A DNA stretch of 64,000 nucleotides. It comes from Eubacterium sp. (GTDB lineage Bacteria; Bacillota; Clostridia; Oscillospirales; Acutalibacteraceae). A model generated the notes under the pieces. That model searched no databases and was not told where the DNA came from. It saw only the letters and a list, made by a program, of their open reading frames with translations. Position 1 is the stretch's first letter; each line of letters begins with the position of its first letter. Location: positions 1 through 64,000 of the forward strand of contig JAFSRX010000062.1 of the NCBI GenBank assembly GCA_017445905.1. Direction: 5' to 3'. The position numbers and the translations under genes are program-made. Of the stretch, positions 3,739 to 62,709 are shown in pieces.

Positions 3739-3766
3739 GCCGGTAGCCGGTGTCCGGTGGTCAGAA
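3739..3766 (+). repeat. Heptamer tandem repeat tract (GCCGGTA type)
   Basis: Consecutive 7-base units GCCGGTA, GCCGGTG, TCCGGTG and a degenerate fourth follow the spoVAE stop codon. It belongs to the heptamer tract set described in the findings; the tract at 61847 has nearly the same unit. Confidence 0.65.
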
Positions 3767-3804
3767 TTGAGGTCGTACCCTGCACAGCACACAGAAACAA
3801 TGGT

Positions 3805-3833
3805 TTGACATCCATCCCTTCAAAAGCTATAAT
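3805..3833 (+). promoter_or_regulatory. Promoter of the GPH transporter-phosphoesterase unit
   Basis: TTGACA (3805-3810), 17 bases, TATAAT (3828-3833). The predicted start site falls at about 3840, at the edge of the GGAGGGG ribosome binding site, so the untranslated leader would be only about 12 bases. Confidence 0.8.
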
Positions 3834-3851
3834 ACTTTTGGAGGGGATATT

Positions 3852-5369
3852 ATGCCATTAGCTAAAACATATACAAAAAAAGAAGCGGCTCTGTATCTGA
3901 CCGGAATGTTCGGTCAGAATATGATTTATAACATCATTGCAACAGGGCTCTATTTTTATTTTCAGAATGTTATCTGTCTTCCTGCAATAGCTCTCGGATG
4001 GATTTTCGCTATTGCAAGAGTATGGGACGCAATAAACGACCCGATGATGGGCGCAATCGTTGATAAAACAAAAACAAAATGGGGCAAATGCAGACCCTAT
4101 CTTCTTTTTGCGCCGCCCTTTATCTGCTTGATAACCTGCGTAACCTTCCTTAATGGAAATTATGCGGTTGCAAAGGAAAGCGGCAATAAAACAGCAATGT
4201 TTCTGATTGTTGCCTGGGCTGCTATATCATATATCCTCTGGGGTATGAGCTATACTGTCGGCGATATTCCTCTTTGGGGAATTATCAGCCGTATGAGTGA
4301 GGTTGAAAAAGACAGGGCAAAGCTTATTTCTCTTTCCCGAATTGTTGCTTCAATCGGTGCCGCCGCTGTAATAGTTTCAATCGTTGCGCTTTCTCAGGCT
4401 GCTAATGATGCTTTTGGCGAAAATACTAATGCTCAGAAGGGCTTTATTGTTGTTTCAATAGCAATGACGGTTGTTGCTTCTCTTATGTTTGAGTGCGCAG
4501 GTCTCGGAACAAAGGAAAGAGTTCCCGCAAGCGATGAGAGAAAAACAATGAAGGAGAGCATTGCGCTTATGTGGAAATGCCTTCCTTTCAGAAGGCTTCT
4601 TATAAGCGGAATTCTTCGTTCACCGATGCAGCTTATGATGATTGTTGTTTTAACCCTATTTACATATTATTACTGCGACGGAAATCTTCAGCTTGCATTT
4701 ACTGAGCCGTCAAGACTTGTTATTCTTCTCATTGTCGGCGGCGGATATTTTGCAGGGCAGTTTATTGCAATGATTCTCTGTCCGTTCTTAATTGGAAAAA
4801 TGAGCGTTAAAACTCTTTATAATTCAACCGCTTTAACCGCAATTCCCGTTGGACTGATTTTTGTAACCTATCTTATAGCACCTCAGAATTTGATGGATTT
4901 AAAATGGGTTATAATTGATGGAATACTCTTCCTGTTCTCAGGTGCAGGCTTCGGCGTTGTCAACGTTGCCCAGTCAATTATGATATCGGATTGCATTGAT
5001 TATGAGGAATACCATAACGGCTACAGACCCGACGGTATTTTCTTCTCGGGTCAGAGCTTTATAACTAAGTTTTCAGCAGGAATTGCATCAATTATTTCAG
5101 CTTATGTTTATAACTATGTCGGCTACACCGATGTTAATATTGATAAAATGAACAAAGCCCTTGAAAACGGCGCAAGCTTTGCAAGGGACTATGCACAGTA
5201 TTCAAAGGCTATGTGGTTTATTCTGACAATTCCCGCAGCAATAGCATACGCCATTGCAATTATTCCAACTATTAAGTATGAAATCTCAACAAAGGAGCAC
5301 CAGAAAATGCTCGATGTTCTTGTTGAAAGACATTCCAAAATGAACAGCGGAGCCTCGGAGGAGAATTGA
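3852..5369 (+). CDS. GPH-family sugar:cation symporter (MelB/XynB-like)
   Basis: Twelve-helix inner-membrane transporter of the glycoside-pentoside-hexuronide:cation symporter family. The 505-aa protein has the diagnostic N-terminal region WDAINDPMMGAIVDKTKTKWGKCRPYLL, with the conserved aspartates used for cation binding, the DIPLWG motif in the fourth helix region, and the C-terminal SDCIDYEEYHNGYRPDG loop. A GGAGGGG ribosome binding site precedes the ATG. The stop codon overlaps the ATG of the phosphoesterase (TGATG), so the two are translationally coupled. The substrate is not readable from the sequence; the partner enzyme suggests a phosphorylated or phosphodiester compound could be involved. 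Confidence 0.92.
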   Translation: MPLAKTYTKKEAALYLTGMFGQNMIYNIIATGLYFYFQNVICLPAIALGWIFAIARVWDAINDPMMGAIVDKTKTKWGKCRPYLLFAPPFICLITCVTFLNGNYAVAKESGNKTAMFLIVAWAAISYILWGMSYTVGDIPLWGIISRMSEVEKDRAKLISLSRIVASIGAAAVIVSIVALSQAANDAFGENTNAQKGFIVVSIAMTVVASLMFECAGLGTKERVPASDERKTMKESIALMWKCLPFRRLLISGILRSPMQLMMIVVLTLFTYYYCDGNLQLAFTEPSRLVILLIVGGGYFAGQFIAMILCPFLIGKMSVKTLYNSTALTAIPVGLIFVTYLIAPQNLMDLKWVIIDGILFLFSGAGFGVVNVAQSIMISDCIDYEEYHNGYRPDGIFFSGQSFITKFSAGIASIISAYVYNYVGYTDVNIDKMNKALENGASFARDYAQYSKAMWFILTIPAAIAYAIAIIPTIKYEISTKEHQKMLDVLVERHSKMNSGASEEN

Positions 5370-6463
5370 TGAAACTCGAATTTAAGGATAATAAATTCAG
5401 AATACTTATGATTGCCGATACCCAGGAGGGAAAAAGGGTAAATGAAGATACTCTGAGACTAATCAACGCCTCCCTTGATGAAGCAATGCCCGATATGGTT
5501 GTATATAGCGGCGACCAGATATGGGGAAAACGCAATTTCAAAGGGAACGCAAGCGAGGTTGAAAGAGTTTTAAGAGAGCTTACAGAGCCTGTTTCAAAGA
5601 GAAATATTCCATTTGCAATATGCTTCGGAAATCACGACAGACAGGTTGGATTATCCAATGCCGAGCAGTTTGAAATATATAAAAAATTCCCTTGCTTCAT
5701 AGGCGAAACAACACCCGATATAGACGGAACAGGTAATTTTTGTTACGAGATAAAAGACGGGGAAGAAGTTAAATATCTTCTCTATCTTTTCGACAGCCAT
5801 TCCAGTCTGAAAATCGGTTATGATAATGTTCACGAAAACCAGATTGAGTGGTATAAAAAAACAAGGGACAGCTACATAGAAAAAAACGGCGAGCCGATTC
5901 CCTCAGTTGTTATTCAGCATATTCCCGTATGCGAGGTTTTCGAACTCTTAACAAGGGTTAAAAGAACAAAGAGGGGAGCAGTCAGAGGTTTCAGAACTCA
6001 TGACGGCGAGTACTTTGTTCTCAATAAAGAAAGAGTCAACGAAACAGGCTTTATGAAGGAATCCCCTGCCGACCCTCAGGAAAACAGCGGAGAATTTGCA
6101 GCATTTACTGAAAAAGGAGACGTCAGAGGACTATATTTCGGACACGACCATAATAATTCCTTCAACGGCGATATTAACGGAATTGATGTCGGCTATACCC
6201 AGGGCGCAGGTTTCAATGTATATGGTCCCGGTAAAGACAGGGGAACAAGGGTTATTGATTTATATTCAGACGGAACGCTTAAAACCTTTGATTTAAGATA
6301 TAAAAACATTGTCGGTAAAAGAGTTAAGAATAAAATCAAGTACGCAATAATGCAGCTCTGCCCAACGAATATGTTTGATGCAATATCAAGAGCAGCAAAG
6401 TTTTTCGTCTCAGTTGCAGCAATTCTCATAATTGCGCTTATAATAATAACATTTCTTAAATAA
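5369..6463 (+). CDS. Membrane-anchored calcineurin-like metallophosphoesterase
   Basis: Two-metal phosphoesterase. The 364 residues show the fold's metal ligands in order: MIADTQEG, YSGDQIWG, FGNHDRQ, IQHIPVCE and the terminal YFGHDHNN. A single hydrophobic helix at the extreme C-terminus (SVAAILIIALIIITF) should tether it to the membrane. The ATG at 5369 is preferred: GGAGG lies seven bases upstream and the codon overlaps the transporter stop. It is plausibly an acid-phosphatase-like enzyme of the PhoD/Icc class acting on the compound handled by the adjacent symporter. No signal peptide is seen, so a cytoplasmic-facing catalytic domain is likely. Confidence 0.88.
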   Translation: MKLEFKDNKFRILMIADTQEGKRVNEDTLRLINASLDEAMPDMVVYSGDQIWGKRNFKGNASEVERVLRELTEPVSKRNIPFAICFGNHDRQVGLSNAEQFEIYKKFPCFIGETTPDIDGTGNFCYEIKDGEEVKYLLYLFDSHSSLKIGYDNVHENQIEWYKKTRDSYIEKNGEPIPSVVIQHIPVCEVFELLTRVKRTKRGAVRGFRTHDGEYFVLNKERVNETGFMKESPADPQENSGEFAAFTEKGDVRGLYFGHDHNNSFNGDINGIDVGYTQGAGFNVYGPGKDRGTRVIDLYSDGTLKTFDLRYKNIVGKRVKNKIKYAIMQLCPTNMFDAISRAAKFFVSVAAILIIALIIITFLK

Positions 6464-6468
6464 ATTTC

Positions 6469-6497
6469 TTGACAAAACAACTATAATATTATAAAAT
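6469..6497 (+). promoter_or_regulatory. tRNA-Pro promoter
   Basis: TTGACA (6469-6474), 17 bases, TAAAAT (6492-6497), placed 52 bases before the mature tRNA. Confidence 0.75.
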
Positions 6498-6548
6498 ATC
6501 AAAGCGTTCAAAAAGTGATACAGCAATTTGAACGCTGAGATAATTTTT

Positions 6549-6626
6549 CGAGGTGTAACTCAGTTTGGCTAGAGTGCTTGCTTTGGGAGCAAGATGCCGC
6601 AGGTTCAAGTCCTGTCACCTCGACCA
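6549..6626 (+). tRNA. tRNA-Pro (TGG anticodon)
   Basis: The acceptor stem pairs CGAGGTG with CACCTCG, followed by A and an encoded CCA end. The anticodon stem-loop CTTGC-TTTGGGA-GCAAG gives anticodon TGG, and the T arm contains GGTTCAAGTCC. It has its own promoter and terminator. Antisense translation gives the familiar false GLEPAASCSQSK protein, which is not a gene. Confidence 0.96.
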
Positions 6627-6630
6627 ACGG

Positions 6631-6657
6631 GACGGGTTTTTTAACCCGTCTTATTTT
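6631..6657 (+). terminator. tRNA-Pro terminator
   Basis: GACGGGTT-TTTT-AACCCGTC followed by TTATTTTT, immediately after the tRNA CCA end. Confidence 0.85.
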
Positions 6658-6865
6658 TATGCAAATCGCTCTAAATTGGCTTAAACAGGCATTATATGCA
6701 ATATGCGTTTTTTTCAATGGCTGACTTGGGTTGCCATTAGTTGACTTGAGTTTGCCTGAACGCCAACCACTTGCCAACCGTTTAGCAACCGATTTTCGAT
6801 AATAAAATTGCATATTTTCAGCAATTATGGTATTATCATTTATATCAGCAAATGGCGGTGAAAAA

Positions 6866-7525
6866 ATGAATAAAGAGTTGTTTAAAACTATAGAATCATT
6901 TATGTTGGAATGCGTTAAGGAATCTGCTCATGATAAAGAGCATGTTTACAGAGTCCTTAATTATTGTTTGTTTTTTGCTGACGGCGAAAACAATGTCGAT
7001 TATGATATTCTTATTACTGCAGCCCTTTTGCATGATATTGGAAGAGATGGTAAAAAGAAGAATCACGCTGTTGTTGGGGCAGAAATGTCATACAATTTTT
7101 TGAATAGCATCAGTTTCCCTAAAGATAAGATTGAAGCCGTATGCGATGCGATAAAATATCATAACAATAACAGTTATGGCAATCAAGAAACTATTGAAGC
7201 AAAAATACTATATGACGCTGATAAACTAGATGCTGTCGGCGTTATGGGGATAGCCAGAAGTTTAATAGGAATTGGTAATTATAACAATCCCATGTATGCT
7301 ATTATTGATAACAAAATAGATTTAAACGAAAATGCTGACAGCGATACCTATATTAGATATTACCTATCTCATATTACCAAGAACTACGACAGGTTTTTCA
7401 CTGGTAAAGCTAAAGATTTAGCAAACAAAATGAAAGCAGTTGATGAGTACTATATGCAGGAATTCGTTAAAACTGTAAATGATAATCAGTCTTACTCAAG
7501 ACTACTTGATGATATAGTACATTAG
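6866..7525 (+). CDS. HD-domain phosphohydrolase
   Basis: Predicted cytoplasmic metal-dependent phosphohydrolase of the HD superfamily, similar in layout to YedJ/YpgQ-type proteins. The 219 residues contain the ligand set H...HD...D: AHDKEHVYRVLNYC, ALLHDIGRD, KYHNNN and DADKLDAVG. The start at 6866 is chosen because GGCGGTG lies six bases before it; an upstream in-frame ATG at 6827 has no ribosome binding site. The substrate (nucleotide, nucleotide alarmone or other phosphate ester) is unknown. It begins an accessory stretch directly downstream of a tRNA gene. Confidence 0.85.
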   Translation: MNKELFKTIESFMLECVKESAHDKEHVYRVLNYCLFFADGENNVDYDILITAALLHDIGRDGKKKNHAVVGAEMSYNFLNSISFPKDKIEAVCDAIKYHNNNSYGNQETIEAKILYDADKLDAVGVMGIARSLIGIGNYNNPMYAIIDNKIDLNENADSDTYIRYYLSHITKNYDRFFTGKAKDLANKMKAVDEYYMQEFVKTVNDNQSYSRLLDDIVH

Positions 7526-7604
7526 AATAAACTTTGAAAAACGCTTATCGGTTTAAATACTTTGAAGTCAACTGTTTTTACAATTAATTATATTGAGGCA
7601 AGTT

Positions 7605-8168: not shown

Positions 8169-8181
8169 TTATATATGAAAG

Positions 8182-8202
8182 AGCCTCGGCATCGCCGAGG
8201 CT
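8182..8202. terminator. Bidirectional terminator
   Basis: Perfect 9-bp stem AGCCTCGGC/GCCGAGGCT with a three-base loop between the cysteine-cluster gene and the convergent methyltransferase gene. Confidence 0.8.
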
Positions 8203-8206
8203 TTCG

Positions 8207-10510: not shown

Positions 10511-10765
10511 ATGATAAAAAAGCTTAACAACCTGATTGATATTCTTAAAAAAATAACAGAGTTTTTAACCTATATAGCAACAGGATATGCAAAAACGGTG
10601 GAGGCTGCTGAAAAAATATCCCTTGTTTTTGTTAAGATATTCAGAATTATTATGTATTTTGTATTCGGCGGAATTACAGTGATAGTTGCTAATAAAATTA
10701 TCAAAACTATAAAGAAAAAGAAAGAAGCTCAGTTAGCTTCTGCTGAAAAAGATGATAAGGATTAA
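10511..10765 (+). CDS. Small hypothetical membrane protein
   Basis: I do not recognise a family. The 84 residues have an amphipathic N-terminus rich in lysine, one clear membrane helix (IIMYFVFGGITVIVANKII, about residues 46-64) and a charged C-terminal tail KTIKKKKEAQLASAEKDDKD, so the tail is probably cytoplasmic. It has its own promoter, an 18-bp palindrome at the start site, a GAAGGG ribosome binding site and a terminator, so it is a monocistronic regulated unit. A phage-holin-like or stress peptide role is possible but not shown. Confidence 0.7.
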   Translation: MIKKLNNLIDILKKITEFLTYIATGYAKTVEAAEKISLVFVKIFRIIMYFVFGGITVIVANKIIKTIKKKKEAQLASAEKDDKD

Positions 10766-12383: not shown

Positions 12384-12556
12384 AGGTTGGGTGAAGCATA
12401 CAGGAAAGGACTGTATTTTTACAGCGCCGAAGGCGTAACACGCTCAGGATAATGAACTGTTTGCTGACAAACCCCGGAGAATTCCATTTATGGGTGCCGA
12501 AGGTGCAAGCAGAGTTATCTGTGAATCTCTCAGGCAAAAGGACGGGGCATTTCTCA
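12384..12556 (+). ncRNA. Tandem glycine riboswitch
   Basis: Two glycine aptamers in series, each with the conserved core: GCCGAAGGCGTAA...CGCTCAGGA for the first, and GGTGCCGAAGGTGCAA...CTCTCAGGCAAAAGGAC for the second, joined by a short linker. It precedes an alanine/glycine:cation symporter. An intrinsic terminator (12585-12609) lies between riboswitch and gene, so glycine probably sets the balance between read-through and termination. Confidence 0.92.
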
Positions 12557-18437: not shown

Positions 18438-19958
18438 CTATTTCTGAATATCCGTGTATATTCCGTAGTGGTCACTGATGTAGCCCTCTCTTAAATCGTC
18501 GAGATAGCCGCAACCTTTTATTTTCATATTATCACTTATAAAAATGAAATCAATGGGAAGAAAGCCAGTATCTCTGTAGCCCCATTCCTGATAGGTTGCC
18601 TTAACTTCATTATTTATCATTTGTGAATTAATAAGCGTTTCAGCGATTGTTTTATACGCCTTATCTTCACTTGTCTGATTAAAATCACCTGTGAGAATGA
18701 TTTTAATTTCTCTATATTGATTTTTTATTTCATCAATTCTACTTTTTATCAGCCCTGCTGAGAAATTTCTCGCCTCTTCACTTGAATTATCAAGGTGAGT
18801 ATTTAGAAAAGCGTATTTATTGCTTTTGTTATCTTCAAGAATTGCATATGAACAAATTCTGTTGCAGCCCGCTTCCTCTTTTTTGCCGTTTTTATCGGTG
18901 AAGGTGAAGCGGCTTTCCTTTTCGGGAGTGGCTGATAGCCATATGGTGTTTGTTTCAAGGGCTTTGAAAACATTTTTGTTCCAGAATATTCCGTTCATTT
19001 CGCTTGTTCTTTCATCACTGTCACCACCTCGTTTAACGGCATAGCTTTCGTAGTCGGGAAGAAGCTTTCCGAGTTTTTCAAGCCATTCGGAATTGAGCTC
19101 CTGAGTTCCGATTAAATCGGGGGAGGACGCTTCCATATAATCCGCAAAGCGAATAACTCTGTCCTCACTTGCCGTATCGTCAAAGCTGCTGCCCCAGGGG
19201 GCTGCAACATTGAAGGAAACAACACGAAGGGTGCTTTCGCTTTTATCAACGGTGCGAATTACCTGAGCATACGGATAAAAAATCGTTAAAGTTAAAGCCA
19301 ATGTCAGAATAACTGACGCAACTGTGTATCTGAATTTTCTGCTGTTTTTATCTGTTTGACATAAATAATGCAGCATAAATTCAAACGCATAGATTAAGAG
19401 AGTTACAGCGTATCCGATTAAAACTCTTCCGTCGAAAAATCTTACAAGCTCGGAAAACATCACCAAAACAAATGCGTTAAAAGCGCTGAACATCATATTC
19501 CTCTTAAACCCGTTTTCAGTGCTTGAAAACAGGGAAGCAATGATAACGGCAAGTGAAAAAACAATAACGCCGATAATTGCAAGAACTGCAAAGAGATAGG
19601 ATTTGTCCGCCGTCAGCGAAGCAAAATCAAAGCCGTGATTAACAATGCAGAGGATGAATGCAAGCAGCGAAACCTTTTTATGCCCTGCCCAAAACATCGG
19701 CAGAAGCATTGAAAGCAGGGGAGTGAAGAAAAGAATCAGCCTTATGATGTGCCACGGTGTTTTTATGGTTGAGGCTTTGAGCATATCGCCAAAGCGATTG
19801 ACCGCGTCAACCTCCTTTTGCGCCTGCTTTGCGTCTGCTTCAAGGCGCTCGTCAAGCTTGTAATACATAAGGTTAACGCCGCATTTGGGGCAGGTTTGCT
19901 TCATATAGAAGGGGCTGAGCCTTTCGCCGCATTTGGGACATTTTGAATTATTCTTCAT
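18438..19958 (-). CDS. Membrane EEP (endonuclease/exonuclease/phosphatase) protein with zinc ribbon
   Basis: The 506-residue protein has three parts. An N-terminal double zinc ribbon (CPKCGERLSPFYMKQTCPKCG) is followed by five or six hydrophobic helices (about residues 70-230). The EEP phosphoesterase domain contains VVSFNVAAPWG, GTQELN, LTGDFNQT and the terminal SDHYGIY catalytic His. Such domains hydrolyse phosphodiesters in DNA, lipids or inositol phosphates. The domain follows a helix, so it may face outward. A strong AAAGGAGGTG lies before the ATG, which overlaps the end of the GPH symporter gene by 11 bases. The coupling mirrors the symporter-phosphoesterase pair at 3.8-6.5 kb. Confidence 0.87.
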   Translation of the reverse strand: MKNNSKCPKCGERLSPFYMKQTCPKCGVNLMYYKLDERLEADAKQAQKEVDAVNRFGDMLKASTIKTPWHIIRLILFFTPLLSMLLPMFWAGHKKVSLLAFILCIVNHGFDFASLTADKSYLFAVLAIIGVIVFSLAVIIASLFSSTENGFKRNMMFSAFNAFVLVMFSELVRFFDGRVLIGYAVTLLIYAFEFMLHYLCQTDKNSRKFRYTVASVILTLALTLTIFYPYAQVIRTVDKSESTLRVVSFNVAAPWGSSFDDTASEDRVIRFADYMEASSPDLIGTQELNSEWLEKLGKLLPDYESYAVKRGGDSDERTSEMNGIFWNKNVFKALETNTIWLSATPEKESRFTFTDKNGKKEEAGCNRICSYAILEDNKSNKYAFLNTHLDNSSEEARNFSAGLIKSRIDEIKNQYREIKIILTGDFNQTSEDKAYKTIAETLINSQMINNEVKATYQEWGYRDTGFLPIDFIFISDNMKIKGCGYLDDLREGYISDHYGIYTDIQK

Positions 19959-21405
19959 TTTCCGACACCTCCTTTGAAAGCTCGTGGCGTCTTTCTTTCA
20001 TATCCGAGCGGATGATTTCAAGGCGCTCTCCTGTTAAATCGTAGAAGAAATATGGAATCAGCGAAAGCAGACCTAAGAGCCAGGGAACAAGGGTGAAAAG
20101 CGCCCAGATATATAAATCGGTTTTGTCGCCCTTGATGGTTGTTCTGTTGCCGAGGCTGTCGGTTTTAAACGAAAGACCTATAACAGGAAGAAGTGCAGTT
20201 CCCAAAGAGGTTGAAACCGAGCCTGAAAGTTTGCCGACAAAGGTTAAAACAGAAAACGAAACGCCCTCGTTTCTTTCGCCTGTTTTCCATTCCATATAGT
20301 CAACTGTGTCGCCAATCATTTCGGTTGGGATAACAGCATTGATTGTGTTGAAGAAGCTGAAAATGAAGTTCTGAAGCATAAGAAGAATTGATATAACAAG
20401 AATGGAATTGTTATAGAATTTCAGCCCTGCGAAAAATACAACTGTTCCAACAACACAGCGAACAATTATATTAAGCATAACAATCTGGCGGTTATCAAAT
20501 TTCTTTTTCAGCTTAGGTATAAGAAGATAGGTTAAAAAGCCGAAAATTGTTCCGGGAAGGCTTATCCATAAGACCGCAGAATTGAGATTTAGAACCTCGG
20601 AGAAATAATAGGTTTGAAAAACGCCTGCAAGACCTGTTAAGGTTCCGATAACATTGCCGAGAATAATCATCATAAGCGGCTTGTTTTTAAGCATTATTTT
20701 AAATCCCTCTAAAACTGAGGGCTCTTTTATGCTTTGAACAACTCTTTCTTTTGTTTTTCTTCCTGCAAGCGAGAAAACAAAAATGAGCATAAACGCTGAA
20801 ACAACTGCAAGAATTAAGAAATCCTGGGAAAGAGTTATGCTCCATTTGCCGTTATTTGATAAATCCATCATAATGACGAGGAAGGTTGTTGAAAGCCCTC
20901 CGAGAATGCTTGAAATAAAGCGGGCTGTTGAAATTGCCCTTGTTCTGTCGCTTGGAGAGGGTGATATAGCAGTGCTCATACCCCAAAACGGAACATCGCC
21001 GATGGTGTAGAAAAACTCCCATATGAAATATGAGATATACATATAAACTATTTTAATTGTTGTTGTTTTTGCATCGGCTAAGATTTCAGGACCCGCAAAA
21101 AGCATTATTGTTGCAACTGCAAGCGGAATGGGAACAATTAATAAATACGGTCTGAGTTTGCCGTATCGAGTTCTTGTTCTGTCGATAATTCCGCCCATGA
21201 GAGGGTCGTTGATTGTATCCCATATTCCGAGAATTAAAATCATTGTTGCAACGGCTTTTCCCGGTATTCCGAAAACCTTTGTGAAAAACAGGGAGAGATA
21301 GCCGCCCGCAACCATATTATAACCGAAAACCTGACCCGCGTTTGCAAAGCCGTAAGCCAGGTTTTCTTTTACACCAACATATCTGATGTCTTTATTATCG
21401 TTCAT
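19948..21405 (-). CDS. GPH-family sugar:cation symporter
   Basis: Second member of the MelB/XynB-type symporter family in the window, 485 residues and twelve predicted helices. Family motifs are WDTINDPLMGGIIDRTRTRYG, the DVPFWG motif in TIGDVPFWGMSTAISPS, and MIGDTVDYMEWKTGERNEGV near the C-terminus. The start at 21405 is chosen for AAGGAA eight bases upstream; a longer frame begins inside the repeat element. It lies 70 bases after asnA on the same strand, so it may share the asnS T-box transcript, though a separate promoter cannot be excluded. The substrate is unknown. Confidence 0.9.
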   Translation of the reverse strand: MNDNKDIRYVGVKENLAYGFANAGQVFGYNMVAGGYLSLFFTKVFGIPGKAVATMILILGIWDTINDPLMGGIIDRTRTRYGKLRPYLLIVPIPLAVATIMLFAGPEILADAKTTTIKIVYMYISYFIWEFFYTIGDVPFWGMSTAISPSPSDRTRAISTARFISSILGGLSTTFLVIMMDLSNNGKWSITLSQDFLILAVVSAFMLIFVFSLAGRKTKERVVQSIKEPSVLEGFKIMLKNKPLMMIILGNVIGTLTGLAGVFQTYYFSEVLNLNSAVLWISLPGTIFGFLTYLLIPKLKKKFDNRQIVMLNIIVRCVVGTVVFFAGLKFYNNSILVISILLMLQNFIFSFFNTINAVIPTEMIGDTVDYMEWKTGERNEGVSFSVLTFVGKLSGSVSTSLGTALLPVIGLSFKTDSLGNRTTIKGDKTDLYIWALFTLVPWLLGLLSLIPYFFYDLTGERLEIIRSDMKERRHELSKEVSENEE

Positions 21406-21412
21406 ATTACTG

Positions 21413-21475
21413 TTCCTTAATTGACCGAACGAAGTGAGAAACCTAAATTCTTCATTCTCAACTCTCAATTTATAA
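21413..21475 (-). repeat. Heptamer tract with variant tail module
   Basis: On the minus strand, units ATTGAGA, GTTGAGA, ATGAAGA and ATTTAGG run in register and are followed by TTTCTCACTTCGTTCGGTCA, a diverged form of the tail shared by other tracts. It fills the asnA-symporter gap. Confidence 0.55.
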
Positions 21476-22477: not shown

Positions 22478-22505
22478 ACCTGATTCCTCCTTTTTGTTTT
22501 AATAA

Positions 22506-22533
22506 CTATGCACTATGCCTTATGCCCTATGGC
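22506..22533. repeat. Heptamer tandem repeat tract (CTATGCC type)
   Basis: CTATGCA, CTATGCC, TTATGCC and CTATGGC, four 7-base units in register, in the asnS-asnA gap. Confidence 0.7.
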
Positions 22534-24013: not shown

Positions 24014-24264
24014 AAAAAATACAGCCGATATCGTCCTTACTATAGGACGAGCGACTGTACCCGTGGTGCCACCTATATTGCTTCTCAATGACTTCGTAAT
24101 TAAAGTCTGCCACTATAACGCTTGGCTTGCGGCGTACTTACTCGTTTCCTTTCAGCTTGCAGCTCTTAAGTGTTCTTCATACGACTGACTCTGTTCGGCT
24201 CACACCGCCCCGAACTCGCTTTGAGAACTTTTTCGTACTACTTTTCTTAGTCATCGCTTTTGAT
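24014..24264 (-). ncRNA. T-box leader (asparagine type)
   Basis: The minus-strand leader has a long stem I region and the T-box core AGGTGGCACCACGG (24074-24061). An intrinsic terminator (GTCC...GGAC inside TACAG...CTGTA, then TTTTTT) lies at about 24011-24057. A candidate specifier AAC followed by A occurs in GAAGAACAC on the 3' side of stem I, matching the downstream asnS. Uncharged tRNA-Asn should favour the antiterminator. Confidence 0.93.
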
Positions 24265-25555: not shown

Positions 25556-25580
25556 TTAAATCACCCTGTTTAAATAGTTT

Positions 25581-25608
25581 CGAGTATCGAGTGCCGAGTT
25601 CCGAGTTT
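25581..25608. repeat. Heptamer tandem repeat tract (CGAGTTC type)
   Basis: CGAGTAT, CGAGTGC, CGAGTTC and CGAGTTT, four 7-base units in register in the feoB-CDF gap. The unit matches, in reverse complement, the tract at 41478. Confidence 0.75.
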
Positions 25609-41367: not shown

Positions 41368-41526
41368 GCGCATACAAAACAGCTTCGATTACAATTACGA
41401 ATTACAAGTTACGAATTACAAATTGATGGTGGGCTCCGACCACACCCGATTATATAATCGGAGCGAAGCGACCCGACAACTCGGAACTCGGGGCTCGAAA
41501 CTCGAAACTGTTTCGTATGCGCTTGC
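41364..41526. repeat. Composite repeat element in the rpsL leader
   Basis: Arms at 41364-41382 and 41508-41526 pair at 18 of 19 positions and enclose two heptamer tracts: AATTACG-type at 41386-41420 and AACTCGG-type at 41478-41505. A tail module between them reads on the minus strand CGGGTCGCTTCGCTCCGATT followed by ATATAA. Confidence 0.7.
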
Positions 41527-49655: not shown

Positions 49656-49769
49656 AATTACGAATTACTAATTTCGGGCGGGAACCTTGGAGCGGGCGCC
49701 AGACCCTTTTGTCTCGCAAGCTCGACATTTCACCTAGCAGGGGAATAACCCGCACCCGATTATATAAGA
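49656..49769 (+). repeat. Heptamer tract and split tail module
   Basis: AATTACG, AATTACT, AATTTCG in register lead into TTTCGGGC. About 80 bases later CACCCGATTATATAA, shared with the copy at 41441, closes the element just before the ecfT ribosome binding site. Confidence 0.6.
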
Positions 49770-52837: not shown

Positions 52838-53947
52838 ATGGTTAATGTTAACAGAATAATTGAAAATTTTAAATCAATAGTCTCTCTCGATAGCCCTTCC
52901 CACGATGAAAGGCTTGTTTGTGAGTACTTAAAAGATTATCTAAAAAAGCTCGGTATTGAAGCATATGAAGATAATTCGGGCGAAAAATCAGGCGGAACAA
53001 CCGGCAATCTCTACGCTTTTATTGAGGGCAATAAAAATCTTGAGCCCTTTGTTTTTTCTTCTCATATGGATACTGTTGAGCCGTCAAAAAACAAATGCGC
53101 GATTATCCATGAAAACGGAAAAATCACCTCGAAGGGCGATACTGTTTTAGGCTCGGATGATGTTGCGGGAATTGTTTCAATTCTTGAAGCGCTGACGGTT
53201 ATCAAAGAGAATAATTTATCCCACAGACCGATTGAGCTGCTTTTTACTGTCAGCGAGGAAACGCACTGCGGCGGAAGTTCATTTTTTGATTATTCAAAAC
53301 TGAAATCAAAGCAGGCATTTGTTTTTGATATGGATGGAGAAGTTGGCGGTGCCGCTTCAAAAGCGCCGACTATTTTATCATATGAAGCAAAGTTCATCGG
53401 TCAGAGCGCACACGCTGCGTTTGCTGCAAAAGAGGGAATTCACGCAATAAAGGCGGCTGCGCTAGCGGTTTCAAAAATCCCCTGCGGTGCGATAGCCGAG
53501 GAAATGACTGCCAATATTGGCGTTATTGAAGGCGGAAAAGCAACTAATATTGTTCCGGATTTATGCACGATAAAAGGCGAAATAAGAAGCTTTGATGATT
53601 CAAAGGTTTTAGCTTCCTTTAAAGGGGTTGAAGAAATCTGTAAATCCTCAGCAGAAGAACTCGGAGCAAGAGTTGAAATAAAGCACGAAATTGCGGTTAA
53701 AGCATTTAATGTTGATGAAAACAGCGAGGTTGCGAAGGTCTTTAAAAAATGCTGTGCAGCTCTTGGACTTTCGGGCGAGCTTTTTGAAACCTTCGGCGGC
53801 TCGGATAACAATGTTTTTGCTGAGCACGGCGTTGAAGGGCTTGTTGTTGCAACAGGCATGAACAACTGCCATTCAGTTGATGAATACACGAGTGTTGACC
53901 AGCTTGAAACAGCGGCGAGATTGGCACTTGAGTTGATGCTTAGCTGA
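52838..53947 (+). CDS. M20-family metallopeptidase (PepT-like)
   Basis: Zinc aminopeptidase or dipeptidase of the M20 family, 369 residues. Metal ligands and catalytic residues lie in FSSHMDTVEP, LGSDDVAGI, VSEETHCGGS and the dimerisation-domain His region GQSAHAAFAAKEGIHAI, with a terminal NCHSVDEYTS. The length and order suit the PepT/tripeptidase group. AGGCAGG lies eight bases before the ATG. It follows the ECF genes by 47 bases on the same strand but has no obvious functional link to vitamin transport. Confidence 0.9.
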   Translation: MVNVNRIIENFKSIVSLDSPSHDERLVCEYLKDYLKKLGIEAYEDNSGEKSGGTTGNLYAFIEGNKNLEPFVFSSHMDTVEPSKNKCAIIHENGKITSKGDTVLGSDDVAGIVSILEALTVIKENNLSHRPIELLFTVSEETHCGGSSFFDYSKLKSKQAFVFDMDGEVGGAASKAPTILSYEAKFIGQSAHAAFAAKEGIHAIKAAALAVSKIPCGAIAEEMTANIGVIEGGKATNIVPDLCTIKGEIRSFDDSKVLASFKGVEEICKSSAEELGARVEIKHEIAVKAFNVDENSEVAKVFKKCCAALGLSGELFETFGGSDNNVFAEHGVEGLVVATGMNNCHSVDEYTSVDQLETAARLALELMLS

Positions 53948-54008
53948 GTTTGGAGTGTGGAGAGTGGAGTGTGGAGTTTCGGGTCGCTTCACTCCGATTA
54001 TAAATAAG
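53946..54008 (+). repeat. Heptamer tract with tail module
   Basis: GAGTTTG, GAGTGTG, GAGAGTG, GAGTGTG, GAGTTTC (53946-53980) lead directly into GGGTCGCTTCACTCCGATTA. It starts at the M20 stop codon and ends at the ribosome binding site of the next gene. Confidence 0.75.
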
Positions 54009-57746: not shown

Positions 57747-57783
57747 AAAAGACTGCATCGGGCGCTCGTCATAAAGAAGTTTT

Positions 57784-57912: not shown

Positions 57913-58028
57913 GCCAAACCAATTTAATATTTTTCGATACCATGGGTACGCTATTTTTATCTATTAGATAAAAATGCATGCTCCTAAATTCTCGTACTTG
58001 TGGTATTGAGTAATTAAATTGGTTTGGC
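57913..58028. mobile_element. 116-bp foldback element
   Basis: Perfect 16-base inverted ends GCCAAACCAATTTAAT and ATTAAATTGGTTTGGC enclose a second nested pair, ATACCA-GTACG with CGTAC-TGGTAT, and a central 9-bp hairpin TTTTTATCT-ATT-AGATAAAAA. No coding potential. Either a small non-autonomous element or a structured RNA. Confidence 0.6.
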
Positions 58029-58051
58029 GACTGTTGGAGTTATGTGTTTTT

Positions 58052-58077
58052 TGTGCGTAGCTTCTGCTACGCATTTT
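58052..58077 (+). terminator. Hairpin with T-run upstream of the TPM gene
   Basis: TGCGTAGC-TTCT-GCTACGCA followed by TTTTTT, 22 bases before the TPM start codon; it would stop transcripts entering from the foldback region. Confidence 0.8.
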
Positions 58078-58099
58078 TTATTTGAAGAAGGGACAATTG

Positions 58100-59056
58100 A
58101 TGAAAAGAATAATTGCAGCAATAGTTTTTATATCTATATTTCTTTCTGTATCAGCCTGTACAAAAACAGAAACAAAGAACATTGGCAAAACTCTCACTAC
58201 GACAGAAATCAATTCTTTAATTACTACCACTGAAACAACAACGCAAAAGTTTATAACAAAGTCAAAATATCTTATAGATAATGCAAATCTATTAACGGAT
58301 AAAGAAAAACACTTAATAATAACAGATTTGGATGATATTCGAAGCAACATTCAGTTTGATACGGCTATTTTGACTACAGAATCATTTGACAGTAAAGTTG
58401 TCGACGACTATGCAGCGAATTACTTTGAAAAAGCGGGATATGGTTATGGTGAAAACAAAGACGGTTGTCTCTTGATAATTAATAAAACTGACAGAGAATG
58501 GTATCTCTATACAAACGGTTTTGGAACAACGGCAATCAGCGATGATTATGGTATTGACTATATTTCAGAGAAGTTTTTACCGCAACTAAAGAATAATAAA
58601 TACGGTGACGCTATTCTTACATTTGTTAACTATGTGAAAGAATTTGTTACTCAAGCAAATTACGGAGAACCTTACAGCGACAGAAATCCATATAGTGATG
58701 TTAGAGAGGAAATAGAAACCCCGACAAAAGGCAGTAAGACAACAAATAGGGCAACTACTGCATATGTGGATAATTATGCCGGCATATATACTGATTTAGA
58801 AGCAAACGTTTGGTATCAATACAAACAGTATCCTTACCTTAAAATATATAATACTGTTGTAAAGGACTGTGATACCAATAGCTATAATAATTCTTGCAGT
58901 GTAACGCATTATCCTGTGTGCTGTGTTTGTCACATATCTTCTAATTATCCAAAGCATACTGCCGTGCAGTTTGATAGTACGGTTGAAGAAAAATATTATT
59001 GCTCTAACTGTGGCGCAACAACATATGTTGAATTAAAACTAAATGAATTATTATAA
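58100..59056 (+). CDS. TPM-domain lipoprotein with cysteine-rich C-terminus
   Basis: Exported lipoprotein, 318 residues. The signal sequence ends at a lipobox VSAC (Cys about 20). A threonine-rich linker precedes a TPM domain (about residues 55-190): YLIDNANLLTDKEKHLI, TAILTTESFDS and GCLLIINKTDREWYLYTNG. TPM domains occur in envelope proteins and in phosphatase-like or repair factors. The C-terminus has clustered cysteines (VCCVCH...CSNCGATT) that look like a zinc site. ATG 58100 is chosen since AAGGGA lies seven bases upstream. It lies 21 bases before the large secreted protein gene. Confidence 0.82.
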   Translation: MKRIIAAIVFISIFLSVSACTKTETKNIGKTLTTTEINSLITTTETTTQKFITKSKYLIDNANLLTDKEKHLIITDLDDIRSNIQFDTAILTTESFDSKVVDDYAANYFEKAGYGYGENKDGCLLIINKTDREWYLYTNGFGTTAISDDYGIDYISEKFLPQLKNNKYGDAILTFVNYVKEFVTQANYGEPYSDRNPYSDVREEIETPTKGSKTTNRATTAYVDNYAGIYTDLEANVWYQYKQYPYLKIYNTVVKDCDTNSYNNSCSVTHYPVCCVCHISSNYPKHTAVQFDSTVEEKYYCSNCGATTYVELKLNELL

Positions 59057-59077
59057 TTTATGAAAGGATGATAAAAT

Positions 59078-61702
59078 ATGAAAAAGAAATTATGCATTTT
59101 TATTTCGGCGGTACTGATATTTGTTTCAATGCCCACTATAGCGTTTGCTGATGATTACAGCGATGCAACGCCCGTAGGTGACAAATACGCGTTTGCTGCA
59201 ATGGCAGAAAATCCCAACGGTAACTATTACCTTACAGATGATATTATATTTACAGCAAACGATTTTAAATATAAAGGAGACTTTTTCAATGACGGCAACT
59301 ATTTTAAAGCAATAGATACCTTCAGAGGAACGCTTGACGGGTGCGGTCACACAGTGAGCGGTCTAAAAGGTGATAGTGCCATAACTAAAACAAATTTCGG
59401 CACGGTTAAAAATATCTTACTGAAAAACTGTACTTTTTCTTCAGGTGCAATTTGCTATGAAAATAAGTATTCCATATCAAATTGCAAGCTTGAATCAAGC
59501 ACATCAGTTAAATTAACAGAATTAAATTATGGAGATATTGAGTATTGCTTTTCAAACGATAATAATTGCGGAATATGTGGTACAAACTATGCGAATATTT
59601 CTTACTGCATTAACAACACCGACTTAACTGAGGGTGGCGGAATAGCAAACGACAATTACGGGAGTATCTCATACTGTATAAATAACGGAGATATTTTATC
59701 AAATTCGAGTGAAGTTGGCGGTATTTGCGGCAGTAATACAAGCCCTGATTACGGAGAAACCGGAAGCAGCGCAAGTGTTAATTACTGTATTAACAATGGC
59801 CAAATCAAAGGTGAAAGAGCTGTTGGTGGTATCTGCGGTGTGACATGGTACGGAAGTATTACAAATTGTCTGAATACTGCAACTGTATCAGCAACAACAG
59901 GGTTAAGCAATATTAGAGGTCCGCAATACTGGTCGTCCGGTATTTCTGAGTTACAATACAACGCCAAGACAATATGTTGTATTAATATCGGTTCGGTCAA
60001 TTCGGGTAATGGGGCTGCAGTTTCACTTGTAAGAGATTATCAAACAGGCAGTATAAATGAAGGTTTTTATTTATCAAACACCGGCAAAGTAAGCGACAAC
60101 ACGACTTCTACAGCCGTTTCATCAAGTAATCTTTCAAACGAAAACTCCTTTCCAAGTTTAGATTTTGATAATGATTGGGAAATTTCCGATAGTAAGCCTA
60201 CATTGAAATTTACTAAGCAAAAAATAATTGGCGCAAGCATTTATTCACAACCTATAAAACTATACTATGACATTGATGAATCGTTTGATTCTTCAGGCTT
60301 AAGTGTTATTGTATATGATAATTTAGGTAACTGGGAAAATAATGAAGAGTATGAAGTCAGCGGTTACACAGGTAAATTTGGGATAAATAAAATAAGCGTT
60401 ACAGCACAAGGGTATAACAATAAGTTTAATGTATTTGTGCAGGACAAAATTGAAAACTGCACCATTGAACCACTTGCACCTATAACAGTAACAGGTAAAG
60501 CAATTGAGCCAATACCAAATATTATTTCACCAAGAGGTGATTTGCTTGAGTATGGGAAAGATTTCCTTCTTGATTATGAAAACAACAACAATATTGGGGT
60601 TGCAAAGATTATCATTAAAGGAATCGGATTATATAAAGGTTCTGCATATACTGAATTTTTGATTACACCTGAAAAGCGACTTGAAATAGTTAATGTGCCA
60701 GATAAGTATTACTATACATATGGCGATAAGGTTGACGCTACAGGACTTGTTGTCCGTAAATTTACCGATGATGGATTATGGCATATTATAGAAACCTATG
60801 AATTATCTGGCTATACGGGAGAACTTGGTAAAAATAATATAACAGTTTCAAGCGATGGATTTGAAAACCAGTTTGAAGTTTTTGTTCAGGAATATATTTA
60901 TAATACCAACATAAAGCTTACTAAAGAGACTTTAGTTTCTAACGGCAAACAACTCGCTCCCGCTGTAATAGTTACTACCGATGACAAAGTGTATCTCGAA
61001 CAGGGCAAGGACTATACATTGTCATATAATGACAATGTATATCCGGGTGTTGCAAGAGTAACAATCAGCGGAATAAACAATTATAAAGGCTCTGCCGTTA
61101 AAACTTTTATTATTACTCCGGCACAAACAACAGGATTATGTGCCAAAGACCGGAAAGAACAAAGCATAATGCTTGCGTGGAACAAGCAGGCAGGAGTTGA
61201 CGGCTATTGCGTTGAAAAATATAATGAAAAAACTAAAAAGTACAGTTCATATAAAACAGTCACGACAAATTCGTTAACCGTTACAGCCTTGACTCCGGCA
61301 ACTAACTACAAGTTCCGAGTACGCTCGTACAAGGTAATTGACGGCAAACTGTATTATGGTCAATATAGTAGTGTGCTTAGTACAAAGACCGCAGCTGTAA
61401 AAGTAAGTTCAACTTCTATTTCGTCAGTGAAAGCCAAGACTGCGGCATTTACTGCAAAGTGGAAAAAACAGTCGAGTGTTAACGGATATCAACTTCAGTA
61501 TTCAACTTCAAGCAGTTTCAAATCAGCTAAAACATTAACCATATCTAAGAACGGATCCACAACTACTACTGTCAAAAAGTTAAAAGGCGGCAAGAAGTAT
61601 TATGTTCGTATCCGTTGCTATAGAACTGTTGGCGGTAAAAAATACTACTCTTCATGGTCTAAGAAAAAAACCGTGAAGGTCAAAGCAAAGAATAAGTTTT
61701 AG
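59078..61702 (+). CDS. Large secreted repeat protein (GLUG-like, Ig-like, Fn3)
   Basis: Exported surface or matrix protein, 874 residues. The signal peptide (KKKLCIFISAVLIFVSMPTI) is cleaved probably after AFA. Residues about 75-280 are GLUG/beta-helix-like repeats with NYGxIxYCINNG and VGGICG patterns. Two similar Ig-like units follow (SGYTGKFGINKISVT and SGYTGELGKNNITVS, each ending GYNNKFNVFVQ/GFENQFEVFVQ), alternating with YKGSAxxxFxITP modules. Two fibronectin type III domains (about 690-870) end in a lysine-rich tail. No LPXTG anchor is present. GAAAGGATG precedes the ATG. It is probably an adhesin or substrate-binding protein. Confidence 0.85.
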   Translation: MKKKLCIFISAVLIFVSMPTIAFADDYSDATPVGDKYAFAAMAENPNGNYYLTDDIIFTANDFKYKGDFFNDGNYFKAIDTFRGTLDGCGHTVSGLKGDSAITKTNFGTVKNILLKNCTFSSGAICYENKYSISNCKLESSTSVKLTELNYGDIEYCFSNDNNCGICGTNYANISYCINNTDLTEGGGIANDNYGSISYCINNGDILSNSSEVGGICGSNTSPDYGETGSSASVNYCINNGQIKGERAVGGICGVTWYGSITNCLNTATVSATTGLSNIRGPQYWSSGISELQYNAKTICCINIGSVNSGNGAAVSLVRDYQTGSINEGFYLSNTGKVSDNTTSTAVSSSNLSNENSFPSLDFDNDWEISDSKPTLKFTKQKIIGASIYSQPIKLYYDIDESFDSSGLSVIVYDNLGNWENNEEYEVSGYTGKFGINKISVTAQGYNNKFNVFVQDKIENCTIEPLAPITVTGKAIEPIPNIISPRGDLLEYGKDFLLDYENNNNIGVAKIIIKGIGLYKGSAYTEFLITPEKRLEIVNVPDKYYYTYGDKVDATGLVVRKFTDDGLWHIIETYELSGYTGELGKNNITVSSDGFENQFEVFVQEYIYNTNIKLTKETLVSNGKQLAPAVIVTTDDKVYLEQGKDYTLSYNDNVYPGVARVTISGINNYKGSAVKTFIITPAQTTGLCAKDRKEQSIMLAWNKQAGVDGYCVEKYNEKTKKYSSYKTVTTNSLTVTALTPATNYKFRVRSYKVIDGKLYYGQYSSVLSTKTAAVKVSSTSISSVKAKTAAFTAKWKKQSSVNGYQLQYSTSSSFKSAKTLTISKNGSTTTTVKKLKGGKKYYVRIRCYRTVGGKKYYSSWSKKKTVKVKAKNKF

Positions 61703-61781
61703 CCAAAAAGAGATGACGACCTATAAATTGTAAGGAAATACTATTGCAGTAACCATTAAAACAAATAGAAAATTAAAAAAC

Positions 61782-61804
61782 GAGCACGGCGACTTGCCGT
61801 GCTC
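61782..61804 (+). terminator. Terminator downstream of the secreted protein gene
   Basis: GAGCACGGC-GACTT-GCCGTGCTC, a perfect 9-bp stem with a weak T-rich tail. Confidence 0.65.
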
Positions 61805-61846
61805 TAACTTCTTTATGAAGGACTCCCCATTGCAGTCTTTTTTGTT

Positions 61847-61867
61847 GCCGGTAGCCGGTTGCCAGTC
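61847..61867 (+). repeat. Heptamer tandem repeat tract (GCCGGTA type)
   Basis: GCCGGTA, GCCGGTT, GCCAGTC in register; almost the same unit as the tract at 3739, and both are followed by a GTACC sequence. Confidence 0.65.
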
Positions 61868-61878
61868 ACGTACCACGT

Positions 61879-62646
61879 TTATTTTATAAGCTGAATTGTT
61901 TCAAGCGGTTTTATTCCGAGCTCGGCAATTTCCTTTTTCATTTTATCAAGGCGTTTTTTATCCTCGATAACCTTGGGATTATGAGCGTCAAGACCGATAA
62001 CCGTTTTGATATCCTTTTCCTTAACCATTTTCCAGAATTCAGGATTTGGATAATGCCTCTTGTCAAAATAACCGTAGAAATTGTATTCAAGCGGAATATC
62101 AATCTTTTTAAGCTCGTCGAGAAGGAAGTTATATTTCTCGGAGTTTATTTTTTTATCCTTTTTGAATTTGATTAAATCGGGATGACAAACATAGGTGAAA
62201 AGTCCGCTTTTTGCACCCTCAAGAAGCTGAGAAATATATTTATCAACAGTTTCAATATTATCAGTAGGGTGGCCGCAGTACTCTCTGAAGGGCTCATATT
62301 CATTATCGGTGAAATGCTGAGCTAAAATCAGATAGTCGTAACCGATATCCTTTAAAAATCTTATATCATTTTCAATAAGCTCGGGATACCATTCCATTTC
62401 GTAACCGAGCTTAATATCAATATCATTCTTGTATTTTTCACGAAGATTATCAATGCTCCTTGCGTATTCCTCCGCCTCTTCGGGGAGCATTCTGCAGGTG
62501 CTGACATAATCATTCGGGAAGAAATGGGGAGCATGGTCCGAAAAGCCGAAAACATCATATCCGTTTTCGATTGCCTTTAAAACATATTCCTCATCCTCTC
62601 CCTGAGCATGATGACATCTTTTTGTATGAGTGTGTAGATTAAACAT
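61879..62646 (-). CDS. PHP-domain phosphatase (HisJ-like)
   Basis: Metal-dependent phosphoesterase of the PHP superfamily, 255 residues. It has NLHTHTKRCHHAQG, GFSDHAP, the middle LGYEMEWYPE, LAQHF, TYVCHPDLI and the C-terminal GLDAHNP, the ordered ligand set of histidinol-phosphatase HisJ. No histidine biosynthesis genes are nearby, so a different phosphate ester is possible. AGGAA precedes the ATG. It lies downstream of galT with a heptamer element in the gap. Confidence 0.87.
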   Translation of the reverse strand: MFNLHTHTKRCHHAQGEDEEYVLKAIENGYDVFGFSDHAPHFFPNDYVSTCRMLPEEAEEYARSIDNLREKYKNDIDIKLGYEMEWYPELIENDIRFLKDIGYDYLILAQHFTDNEYEPFREYCGHPTDNIETVDKYISQLLEGAKSGLFTYVCHPDLIKFKKDKKINSEKYNFLLDELKKIDIPLEYNFYGYFDKRHYPNPEFWKMVKEKDIKTVIGLDAHNPKVIEDKKRLDKMKKEIAELGIKPLETIQLIK

Positions 62647-62664
62647 AGTATTCCTATCTTAAAA

Positions 62665-62709
62665 ATTATGAATGATGAATTTCGGGTCACTGCGCGACGA
62701 TTATAATTA
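62665..62709 (+). repeat. Heptamer tract with tail module
   Basis: ATTATGA, ATGATGA, ATTTCGG in register, then GGTCACTGCGCGACGATTAT, the shared tail, in the galT-PHP gap. Confidence 0.65.

Follow-up and report, generated by a model that had tools for sequence, protein, structure and literature searches.

A stretch of 64 kb of the Eubacterium sp. assembly GCA_017445905.1 (positions 1 to 64,000 of contig JAFSRX010000062.1, C41 in our numbering; hereafter the window) carries short tandem tracts with a period of seven bases in the gaps between its genes, and the repeated unit differs from gap to gap. This raises the question of what kind of genetic entity the tracts belong to, and how the period stays constant while the sequence changes. 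We consider it probable that they are the arms of elements of the type known from the intervening sequences (IVS) of 23S rRNA genes, which contain a gene of the Pfam family PF05635 (23S_rRNA_IVP; hereafter IVP gene), that these elements form a small dispersed intergenic family, and that the window holds their non-coding derivatives, solo halves and solo arms. The genome, termed G000, comprises 2.27 Mb in 75 contigs.

Period-7 tracts in the window and the genome

The preliminary description of the window had listed ten heptamer tracts. Each of the ten places was read, and the tracts are real: a scan of the gaps (8.2 kb outside open reading frames (ORFs) of at least 150 amino acids) with the threshold set at a period-7 score of 7 recovered nine, together with two further tracts at 10648 (score 8) and 56023 (score 7), whereas first-order resampling (60 runs) gives an expectation of 1.2 tracts (maximum 4). 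At a score of at least 8 there are 8 tracts, 7 of them among the ten listed, against 0.33 expected (maximum 2), and at a score of at least 10 there are 5 against 0.07 (maximum 1). The remaining periods stay near the resampled level, the highest at score 7 being period 6 (3 vs 0.9) and period 12 (3 vs 1.2), and at score 10 periods 9 and 12 yield a single tract each. The tract at 21442 is too degenerate to score and falls below the tandem threshold; it overlaps the start of a predicted ORF (19948–21468, TTG start). It is counted as a putative decayed arm because the adjoining hairpin core GACCGAACGAAGTGAGAAACC (21423–21443) also flanks good tracts elsewhere, a similar core being found beside such tracts in G000 and in the related genome G007. 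Core and arm (CCTAAATTCTTCATTCTCAACTCTCAATT, 21442–21470) together would form a decayed half-element at 21423–21470, reading inward on the minus strand. As for the properties first ascribed to the tracts, the 7-base period itself stands, and its strictness does not, most tracts containing mismatches; the units are different overall, except that some are reverse complements or close variants of one another (CGAGTTC and AACTCGG). It had been missed that many tracts are halves of inverted pairs beside a hairpin.

The proposed excess of heptamers in gaps over 6- and 8-base periodicity was borne out on the part of the genome that was sampled. In 222 kb (at most the first 20 kb of each of 20 contigs chosen by number, the hit-bearing contigs C1, C8, C16, C20 and C21 being skipped) there are 21 intergenic period-7 tracts and 1 genic one, with an intergenic share of the sample of 17%, while intergenic tracts of periods 4, 5, 6, 8 and 9 number 0 and those of periods 10, 11 and 12 number 1, 2 and 1. 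A second sample of 377 kb, biased in that it was picked for its hits, contains 41 intergenic and 7 genic period-7 tracts and no intergenic ones of periods 4–6 and 8. Of the tandem periods, 7 alone is clearly enriched in the gaps of this genome, with an extrapolated total of about 200–230 tracts. In addition, a DNA query around the tract at 25576–25607, for which 40 of 65 candidates were scored, finds at least 20 matches in the genome, including the tract itself.

Element architecture and coding form

The flanks of many tracts share a common architecture, in which the tract ends in A(A/G)TT and is followed by a few bases, a hairpin starting with GG and an AT-rich spacer resembling ATTATAA. The hairpin stems, as judged by reading, are very variable (GTGGGC/GCCCAC, GTGC/GCAC, GTCT/AGAC, GTCGC/GCGAC, GCGGG/CCCGC and others). 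In complete elements a second half follows in inverted orientation, and solo halves and solo arms also occur. The complete element of the window (41393–41509) lies in the gap between rpoC and rpsL (gene names from Pfam) and consists of a left arm on the plus strand (41393–41424, unit AATTACR, 32 nt), a core of two GC-rich hairpin modules inverted around ATTATATAAT (41425–41477) and a right arm on the minus strand (41478–41509, inward unit AGTTYCG, 32 nt). A solo half at 53946–54003 on the plus strand has an arm of 32 nt (53946–53977, unit GAGTGTG/GAGAGTG) and a core TTCGGGTCGCTTCACTCCGATTATAA (53978–54003), and has no counterpart in the orthologous gap of G007 or of another relative, G002. An arm holds about 4.5 heptamers, hereafter boxes, and the mode of 31–33 nt corresponds to five boxes, the count being derived from the tract length, whose ends are set by a score threshold. 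Dispersed copies share variants at fixed positions of the array (AATTAAGAATTAAGATTTAAGAATGAAGAATTTCGGGTCGC three times, AGGAGTGAGGAGTTAGGAATTAGGAGTTTT four times), which shows that arms are copied whole. The idea of a copying mechanism that preserves length was therefore half right: whole arms are copied, and their length peaks at 31–33 nt.

The genome also contains a coding form. At L028 (11180–11730) an ORF of 120 amino acids lies between arms, and its product matches PF05635 ("four helix bundle protein") with an E value of 1e-29. The order is arm, core, ORF, core, arm, with the gene between two core hairpins, and the element of 551 bp is the clearest coding one of this genome. Between the same two genes, G002 and G007 hold arm, core, core and arm without any gene. 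In the next gap upstream, the IVP gene of G007 is interrupted by a single internal stop, and the elements of G000 and G002 are non-coding. Because coding and non-coding forms swap at orthologous gaps, the window copies are best read as non-coding derivatives; the window contig itself gave no PF05635 match. The derivatives (arms and hairpins, no gene) mostly measure 105–120 nt. A search of viral contigs with one exact core pattern found no occurrence.

Association of heptamer arrays with PF05635 genes

Members of PF05635 are present in 71 of 147 genomes from the order and in 57 of 299 sampled from the phylum, and a protein search of plasmids with a G000 IVP returned 25 records, of which 20 are cyanobacterial by organism name and the others come from Bernardetia, Treponema saccharophilum, Monoglobus and Chlorohelix (two). 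From four sets (genus, order, phylum and plasmids, the last with 20 of the 25 records) 109 IVP loci were taken, and 94 remained after 15 cut by contig ends had been dropped. A period-7 array lies within about 220 bp on both sides of the gene in 44 of the 94, on one side in 16 and on neither in 34. At least one side has an array in 10/24 loci of the genus, 10/20 of the order, 21/30 of the phylum and 19/20 of the plasmids, where the 7-bp arrays flank the IVP genes of Nostoc, Anabaena, Planktothrix, Dolichospermum and other cyanobacteria. Other periods are nearly absent from the 94 loci (none for 4, 5, 6, 9 and 10; 3, 2 and 3 for 8, 11 and 12). Moreover, 116 period-7 tracts were counted in 49 kb beside the IVP gene and 35 in 188 kb lying more than 500 bp away, i.e. 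2.4 against 0.19 per kb. Around an unrelated gene in 80 other species (80 loci, 859 kb) there is 1 period-7 tract, as compared with 23 for period 9 and 7 for period 6. The link between heptamer arms and IVP genes is strong.

The arms follow rules of their own. Within a locus, one arm matches the inverted other arm at a mean of 5.91 of 7 positions, compared with 3.85 for shuffled partners (the largest of 10,000 shuffles being 4.43) and 4.05 for the direct orientation. A match of at least 6/7 is reached by 31 of 44 pairs when inverted and by 8 of 44 when direct, although a few loci read better direct. This inverted match speaks against a gene that was dropped into an existing direct array. Across loci the unit sequence is free, with 53 distinct units in 60 loci; nevertheless, A(A/G)T is found in the cyclic reading of the unit in 45 of 60 loci, as against 24 (maximum 35) with the letters shuffled. 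The inward-reading strand is purine-rich in 80 of 102 arms, and G exceeds C in 72 and the reverse holds in 22. A length of 31–33 nt is the mode both of the arms beside IVP genes (34 of 88) and of the tracts in sampled stretches of G000, G002 and G007 (53 of 147). An equal number of units in the two arms, as suggested by three Nostoc plasmids, was tried as a further rule and rejected, the correlation of lengths being -0.06, or 0.19 without long arrays (n = 40).

Several side observations concern the arms and the plasmid loci. About 16 of the 34 IVP loci that lack a tandem array have 7-mers (ATGAAAT, CATCACT and ATTTAGC, for example) split by mini-hairpins, mostly with 4–6 boxes per side, as judged by eye and with no shuffled control. 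This second arm type (ATGAAAT-hairpin-ATGAAAT and so on) is seen at L199, L200, L202, L208, L214, L228, L234, L243 and L245, and in several loci the two sides are inverted. Boxes with a short spacer stand beside the IVP gene of L277 (TAGTTAA plus four bases, period 11), and two loci of the phylum set have period-11 tracts on both sides of the gene. Four Nostoc plasmids carry related IVP insertions (L293–L296), with arms of 33/33, 33/33 and 26/26 nt and, in L296, arms with matching inverted inserts instead. Plasmid IVP genes (L283, L287, L289, L290, L292, L297–L300) often lie in, beside or one gene from defence or modification genes, an observation made with no background rate: between cas2 and cas1 in Nostoc TCL26-01 and Anabaena cylindrica, next to csx2 and cas1 in Pseudanabaena, between HsdS and HsdR in Monoglobus, after drmD of a DISARM locus in Planktothrix, and in other cases near DNA methylases.

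Distribution in the genus and orthologous gaps

The heptamer feature is patchy within one genus. A shorter DNA query finds at least 22 matches each in G000 and G002 and at least 20 in G007; the remaining 37 relatives have none. A strict pattern of four ARTT boxes at period 7, for which matches and not sites were counted (overlaps and both strands included), gives 84, 116, 88, 40, 38 and 6 matches in G000, G002, G007, G016, G006 and G010, 0–2 in the other 15 congeners, and 5 and 2 in two of four genomes from other families. The same pattern read backward, as a control, gives 41, 2, 40, 13, 22 and 4 in the same six genomes, counts that are not zero because some units fit both readings. PF05635 matches number 5, 5, 7, 5, 3 and 2 in G000, G002, G007, G013, G006 and G016 and 1 each in G001, G005, G008, G010 and G024, with none in 9 of 20 congeners. 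All 6 congeners with at least 3 strict heptamer matches carry IVP genes, compared with 5 of the 14 others (p = 0.014; 20 congeners).

G000 and G007 share 91% DNA identity over the rpoBC region, and 17 orthologous gaps that hold an element in G000, G002 or G007, mostly from stretches chosen for their tracts, were read side by side. In ten of them a single one of the compared species has an element (often just two were comparable), and in the other 7 more than one does; at least 5 of these 7 hold, by reading, clearly different units between well-conserved flanks. For example, the rpoC–rpsL gap has arms AATTACG/AGTTYCG in G000 and arms AGTGAAG/AGTTAAG with other hairpins in G007, and no period-7 tract was found there in 14 other congeners whose rpsL locus was examined. 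These differences in presence and type mean that elements come, go or are replaced as units, and mobility is supported by the comparison of orthologous gaps.

The IVP protein and a proposed mechanism

Judged from its coding sequences, the IVP protein is under purifying selection. Ninety of the 94 loci lack an internal stop, which is present in the other 4, and the ratio of non-synonymous to synonymous substitution rates is 0.02–0.26 in the computable pairs, many pairs being saturated at silent sites. The closest solved structures are 2RLD (E value 1e-36) and 2GSC (4e-5), with five chains each. The Xanthomonas protein is reported to form a homopentameric ring of four-helix bundles, and the role of PF05635 proteins is given as not known (PMC4990558).

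A full element consists of an arm of about five boxes (31–33 nt), a GC hairpin, the PF05635 gene (about 120 amino acids), a second GC hairpin and the inverted arm. We propose that a pentameric IVP ring would bind an arm with one box per subunit, most likely as a single strand. Such binding would hold the period to 7 and the number of boxes to about 5, and would leave the box sequence free to drift. Where boxes are spaced by hairpins, the hairpins could bulge out between the subunits of the ring. The IVP may support movement of both coding and non-coding forms, with catalysis presumably supplied by the host; no transposase is consistently linked to the elements. The protein may also have a separate function on RNA, by analogy with rRNA intervening sequences.

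Alternative explanations

The arms might instead act as RNA, i.e. as transcribed long hairpins that are bound by the IVP or, in the manner of 23S rRNA intervening sequences, cut by RNase III and are kept for mRNA stability, insulation or autoregulation, a possibility that we regard as unlikely. Two of three complete elements indeed have a much stronger fold than shuffled sequences (z -5.9 and -5.4), while the window element reaches only -1.5; such scores are not specific, since any inverted repeat folds. Selection on paired RNA is not apparent in the differences between arms, which do not favour G–U pairs in the coding-strand RNA (22 retaining, 32 breaking and 62 transversions, from 40 of 44 two-armed loci), and it agrees poorly with the variable presence of an element between species at one gap and with the common occurrence of solo arms and halves. 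Plain slippage is less probable still, and we consider it very improbable that the tracts are slipped-strand microsatellites whose period follows from polymerase geometry and whose association with a gene is secondary. Heptamers are over-represented among the longer tandem repeats of many bacteria, for which a polymerase explanation has been proposed (PMC4692102, PMC4679880), and a few arms here are clearly expanded (260 nt in L301 and 385 nt in L265), a few arrays exceeding 70 nt. Nevertheless, slippage would give a broad or decaying distribution in place of the peak at 31–33 nt; it would account neither for the fixed-position variants common to dispersed copies nor for arms that are largely inverted pairs around one gene family, and the control loci had a single period-7 tract.

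Two further explanations invoke other enzymes. GC-rich hairpins in inverted pairs are REPIN-like, and the elements could be moved in trans by a Y1 transposase of the RAYT type. Five of the 6 arm-bearing congeners have Y1_Tnp matches, and of 13 Y1 genes examined, three (L157, L161, L167) have a heptamer tract on one side at a distance of up to 300 bp. However, Y1_Tnp is present as well in 6 of the other 14 congeners (p = 0.16), none of the 13 genes has tracts on both sides, seven genes of about 250 amino acids that were read have their own palindromes as direct flanks (GGGGTCTGACCCC, GGGGACnGTCCCC and similar ones), and G007 has only weak matches in proteins of 166–175 amino acids. We give this explanation slightly less credence than slippage. 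The RAYT-like genes at L154–L159 (G000 and G002) and L161 (G016), also of about 250 amino acids, have palindromes (GGGGTCTGACCCC, GGGGACAGTCCCC) that constitute a separate repeat family. Copying by a reverse transcriptase helped by an Avd-like IVP, as in diversity-generating retroelements, has the lowest probability of all in our judgement, close to none. It could draw on the description of PF05635 as a relative of Avd (PMC10053308), but RVT_1 (PF00078) has no match in the six arm-bearing congeners (G000 and G007 97% complete, G016 90%, G002 88%, G006 73%, G010 62%), and the 3 of 20 congeners that do have it show no strict heptamer matches. The suggestion of a template-based origin, in the sense of reverse transcription, finds no footing in these six genomes, of which three are only 62–88% complete. 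Slippage, RAYT/REPIN movement and reverse-transcriptase copying were each tested and are disfavoured.

The reading of the tracts as arms of IVP elements has to be held against a number of observations that weigh on the other side. No tandem array was seen at 34 of the 94 IVP loci. The 94 loci, taken as the best matches in each genome, are partly dependent on one another, 24 belonging to a single genus and four being related loci of Nostoc plasmids. In G000 clear heptamer arms enclose only 2 of the 5 IVP genes, at L206 and at the cut locus L197; the match at L212 is partial, with a weak one-sided tract, and the repeats at L216 and L220 are of other kinds. Two Nostoc plasmid stretches of 50 kb each contain just 2 and 4 period-7 tracts. 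In the non-coding elements the left and right arms match at 4.87 positions, compared with 4.49 by chance, and 262 of 10,000 shuffles are as high, from which it follows that many are mosaics. The similarity of unit sequences follows that of the IVPs weakly (Mantel r 0.22), as common descent alone would give. Pairs of filled and empty sites read by eye showed no consistent target-site duplication, their flanks having diverged too far for one to be demonstrated. We know of no reported binding of an IVP to the arms, and the match between pentamer and boxes is a numerical one. Finally, in Nostoc only few heptamer arrays form inverted pairs (PMC4692102), which fits a mobile inverted element less well.

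Further tracts and features of the window

The remaining listed tracts of the window are as follows. Arm-like tracts of the unit GCCGGTA with no core seen lie at 3739–3759 (3 units, also confirmed by reading) and, more weakly, at 61847–61863, neither assigned to a strand; the word AGTTGCCGGT also stands beside the partial IVP match L212. Solo arms are present at 22505–22531 (minus strand, inward unit GCATAGT) and at 25576–25607 (plus strand, unit AGTTCCG, 32 nt, five boxes), the latter also from the DNA search of the genome. On the plus strand, a short arm AATTACG (49656–49673) adjoins a long core variant, TCGGGCGGGAACCTTGGAGC...ACCCGCACCCGATTATATAA (49674–49767), assigned by reading, which recurs at other sites: as GGGCGGGAACCTTGGAGCGGGCGCCAGACCCTTTTGTCTCGC...ACCCGCACCCG it is found in G000 at L010, L013, L023, L024 and L184, and a core resembling it is present in G016 (L161). 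A weak short arm AATTATGAATGATGAAT (62664–62680) is followed by a core TTCGGGTCACTGCGCGACGATTATAATTATGG (62681–62712, by reading), both on the plus strand. At gathering thresholds Rfam has no family at the tracts and no rRNA in the window, where it places a T-box leader (24040–24263, minus strand) and a glycine riboswitch (12464–12555, plus strand).

Comparison with known systems

Dispersed intergenic heptamer arrays have been described before. The heptamers of the short tandemly repeated repetitive (STRR) class are repeats of filamentous cyanobacteria, and the likeness first suggested for the window is supported in that 7-bp arrays flank PF05635 genes on cyanobacterial plasmids too; the STRRs differ in their cyanobacterial host. 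The GGGGA(T/C)T and GGGAATC heptamers of Nostoc and Xanthomonas are likewise dispersed, largely intergenic and of period 7, but the available portion of PMC4692102 gives no link to a gene family, the Xanthomonas sites are described there as conserved in position, and the Nostoc arrays as rarely paired. In Xanthomonas, 70–75 cases of GGGAATC form convergent inverted pairs (PMC4692102), and a Planktothrix IVP gene of our set has arms of AATCCCC, the complement of GGGGATT. The TAACTGA repeats of Beggiatoaceae resemble the present tracts in being intergenic heptamer arrays with a patchy spread across phyla, and differ in having one fixed unit, nearly always direct and mostly just upstream of start codons (PMC4679880, in whose available text the words 23S, S23, four-helix and intervening are absent).

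With miniature inverted-repeat transposable elements (MITEs) and REPINs the elements share short, dispersed, intergenic inverted-repeat derivatives of a coding form, and differ in that no transposase is consistently linked and the ends are short tandem arrays of free unit sequence. The non-coding copies share their ends with the coding parent, with like arms and cores and the ORF between two cores, and their relation to the coding IVP elements resembles, by analogy, that of MITEs to a parent transposon. A RAYT gene flanked by the same repeat, as in REPIN systems, was not found among the 13 Y1 genes, whose flanks carry other palindromes and in no case tracts on both sides. Avd, which is a pentamer, belongs to diversity-generating retroelements; the likeness lies in its relation to PF05635 (PMC10053308), and the difference in the lack of a reverse transcriptase match in the six arm-bearing congeners.

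The elements also resemble the 23S rRNA IVS of Leptospira, Coxiella and others, where a PF05635/S23p ORF also lies inside an inverted-repeat element (PMC4990558). In Coxiella, tandem heptamers (GACAGAT) precede the S23p ORF, and their number varies between strains (PMC4990558). A PF05635 gene between inverted repeats is what the coding elements possess, L206 being among the 44 of 94 two-armed loci, and the window copies appear to be derivatives only. The present elements differ from the IVS in lying between protein genes, as the window tracts do, and not inside a 23S rRNA gene, in being dispersed in large number and mostly non-coding, and in having heptamer arrays of similar length as both arms. 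The over-representation of heptamers, the Xanthomonas pairs and the Coxiella IVS heptamers are already known (PMC4692102, PMC4990558). As far as the open-licence literature shows, where Coxiella is one case and nothing was found that ties PF05635 genes in general to heptamer arrays, two points appear to be new. One is that PF05635 genes are commonly framed by inverted heptamer arrays in different phyla, from gut Clostridia to spirochaetes and cyanobacteria; the other is that non-coding relatives of IVP elements have as their arms the heptamer tracts dispersed between the genes of this genus. Intergenic heptamers of bacteria have long been without an owner and PF05635 without a role, and tying them together makes both testable, predicts the target of the protein and suggests why the period stays 7 while the sequence changes. 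More tentatively, and with some doubt on our part, there might be a widespread class of transposase-free mobile elements whose sole protein is a pentameric ring and whose ends are five heptamer boxes, one per subunit, with unexplained intergenic heptamers (STRRs, Xanthomonas GGGAATC pairs) as its ends or derivatives and 23S IVS as copies that landed in rRNA genes. If so, ring geometry would set period and number, new box specificities could arise freely, and the elements would be a possible case of movement without an element-encoded transposase; the link between IVP genes and heptamers also offers a concrete candidate origin for the rRNA intervening sequences.

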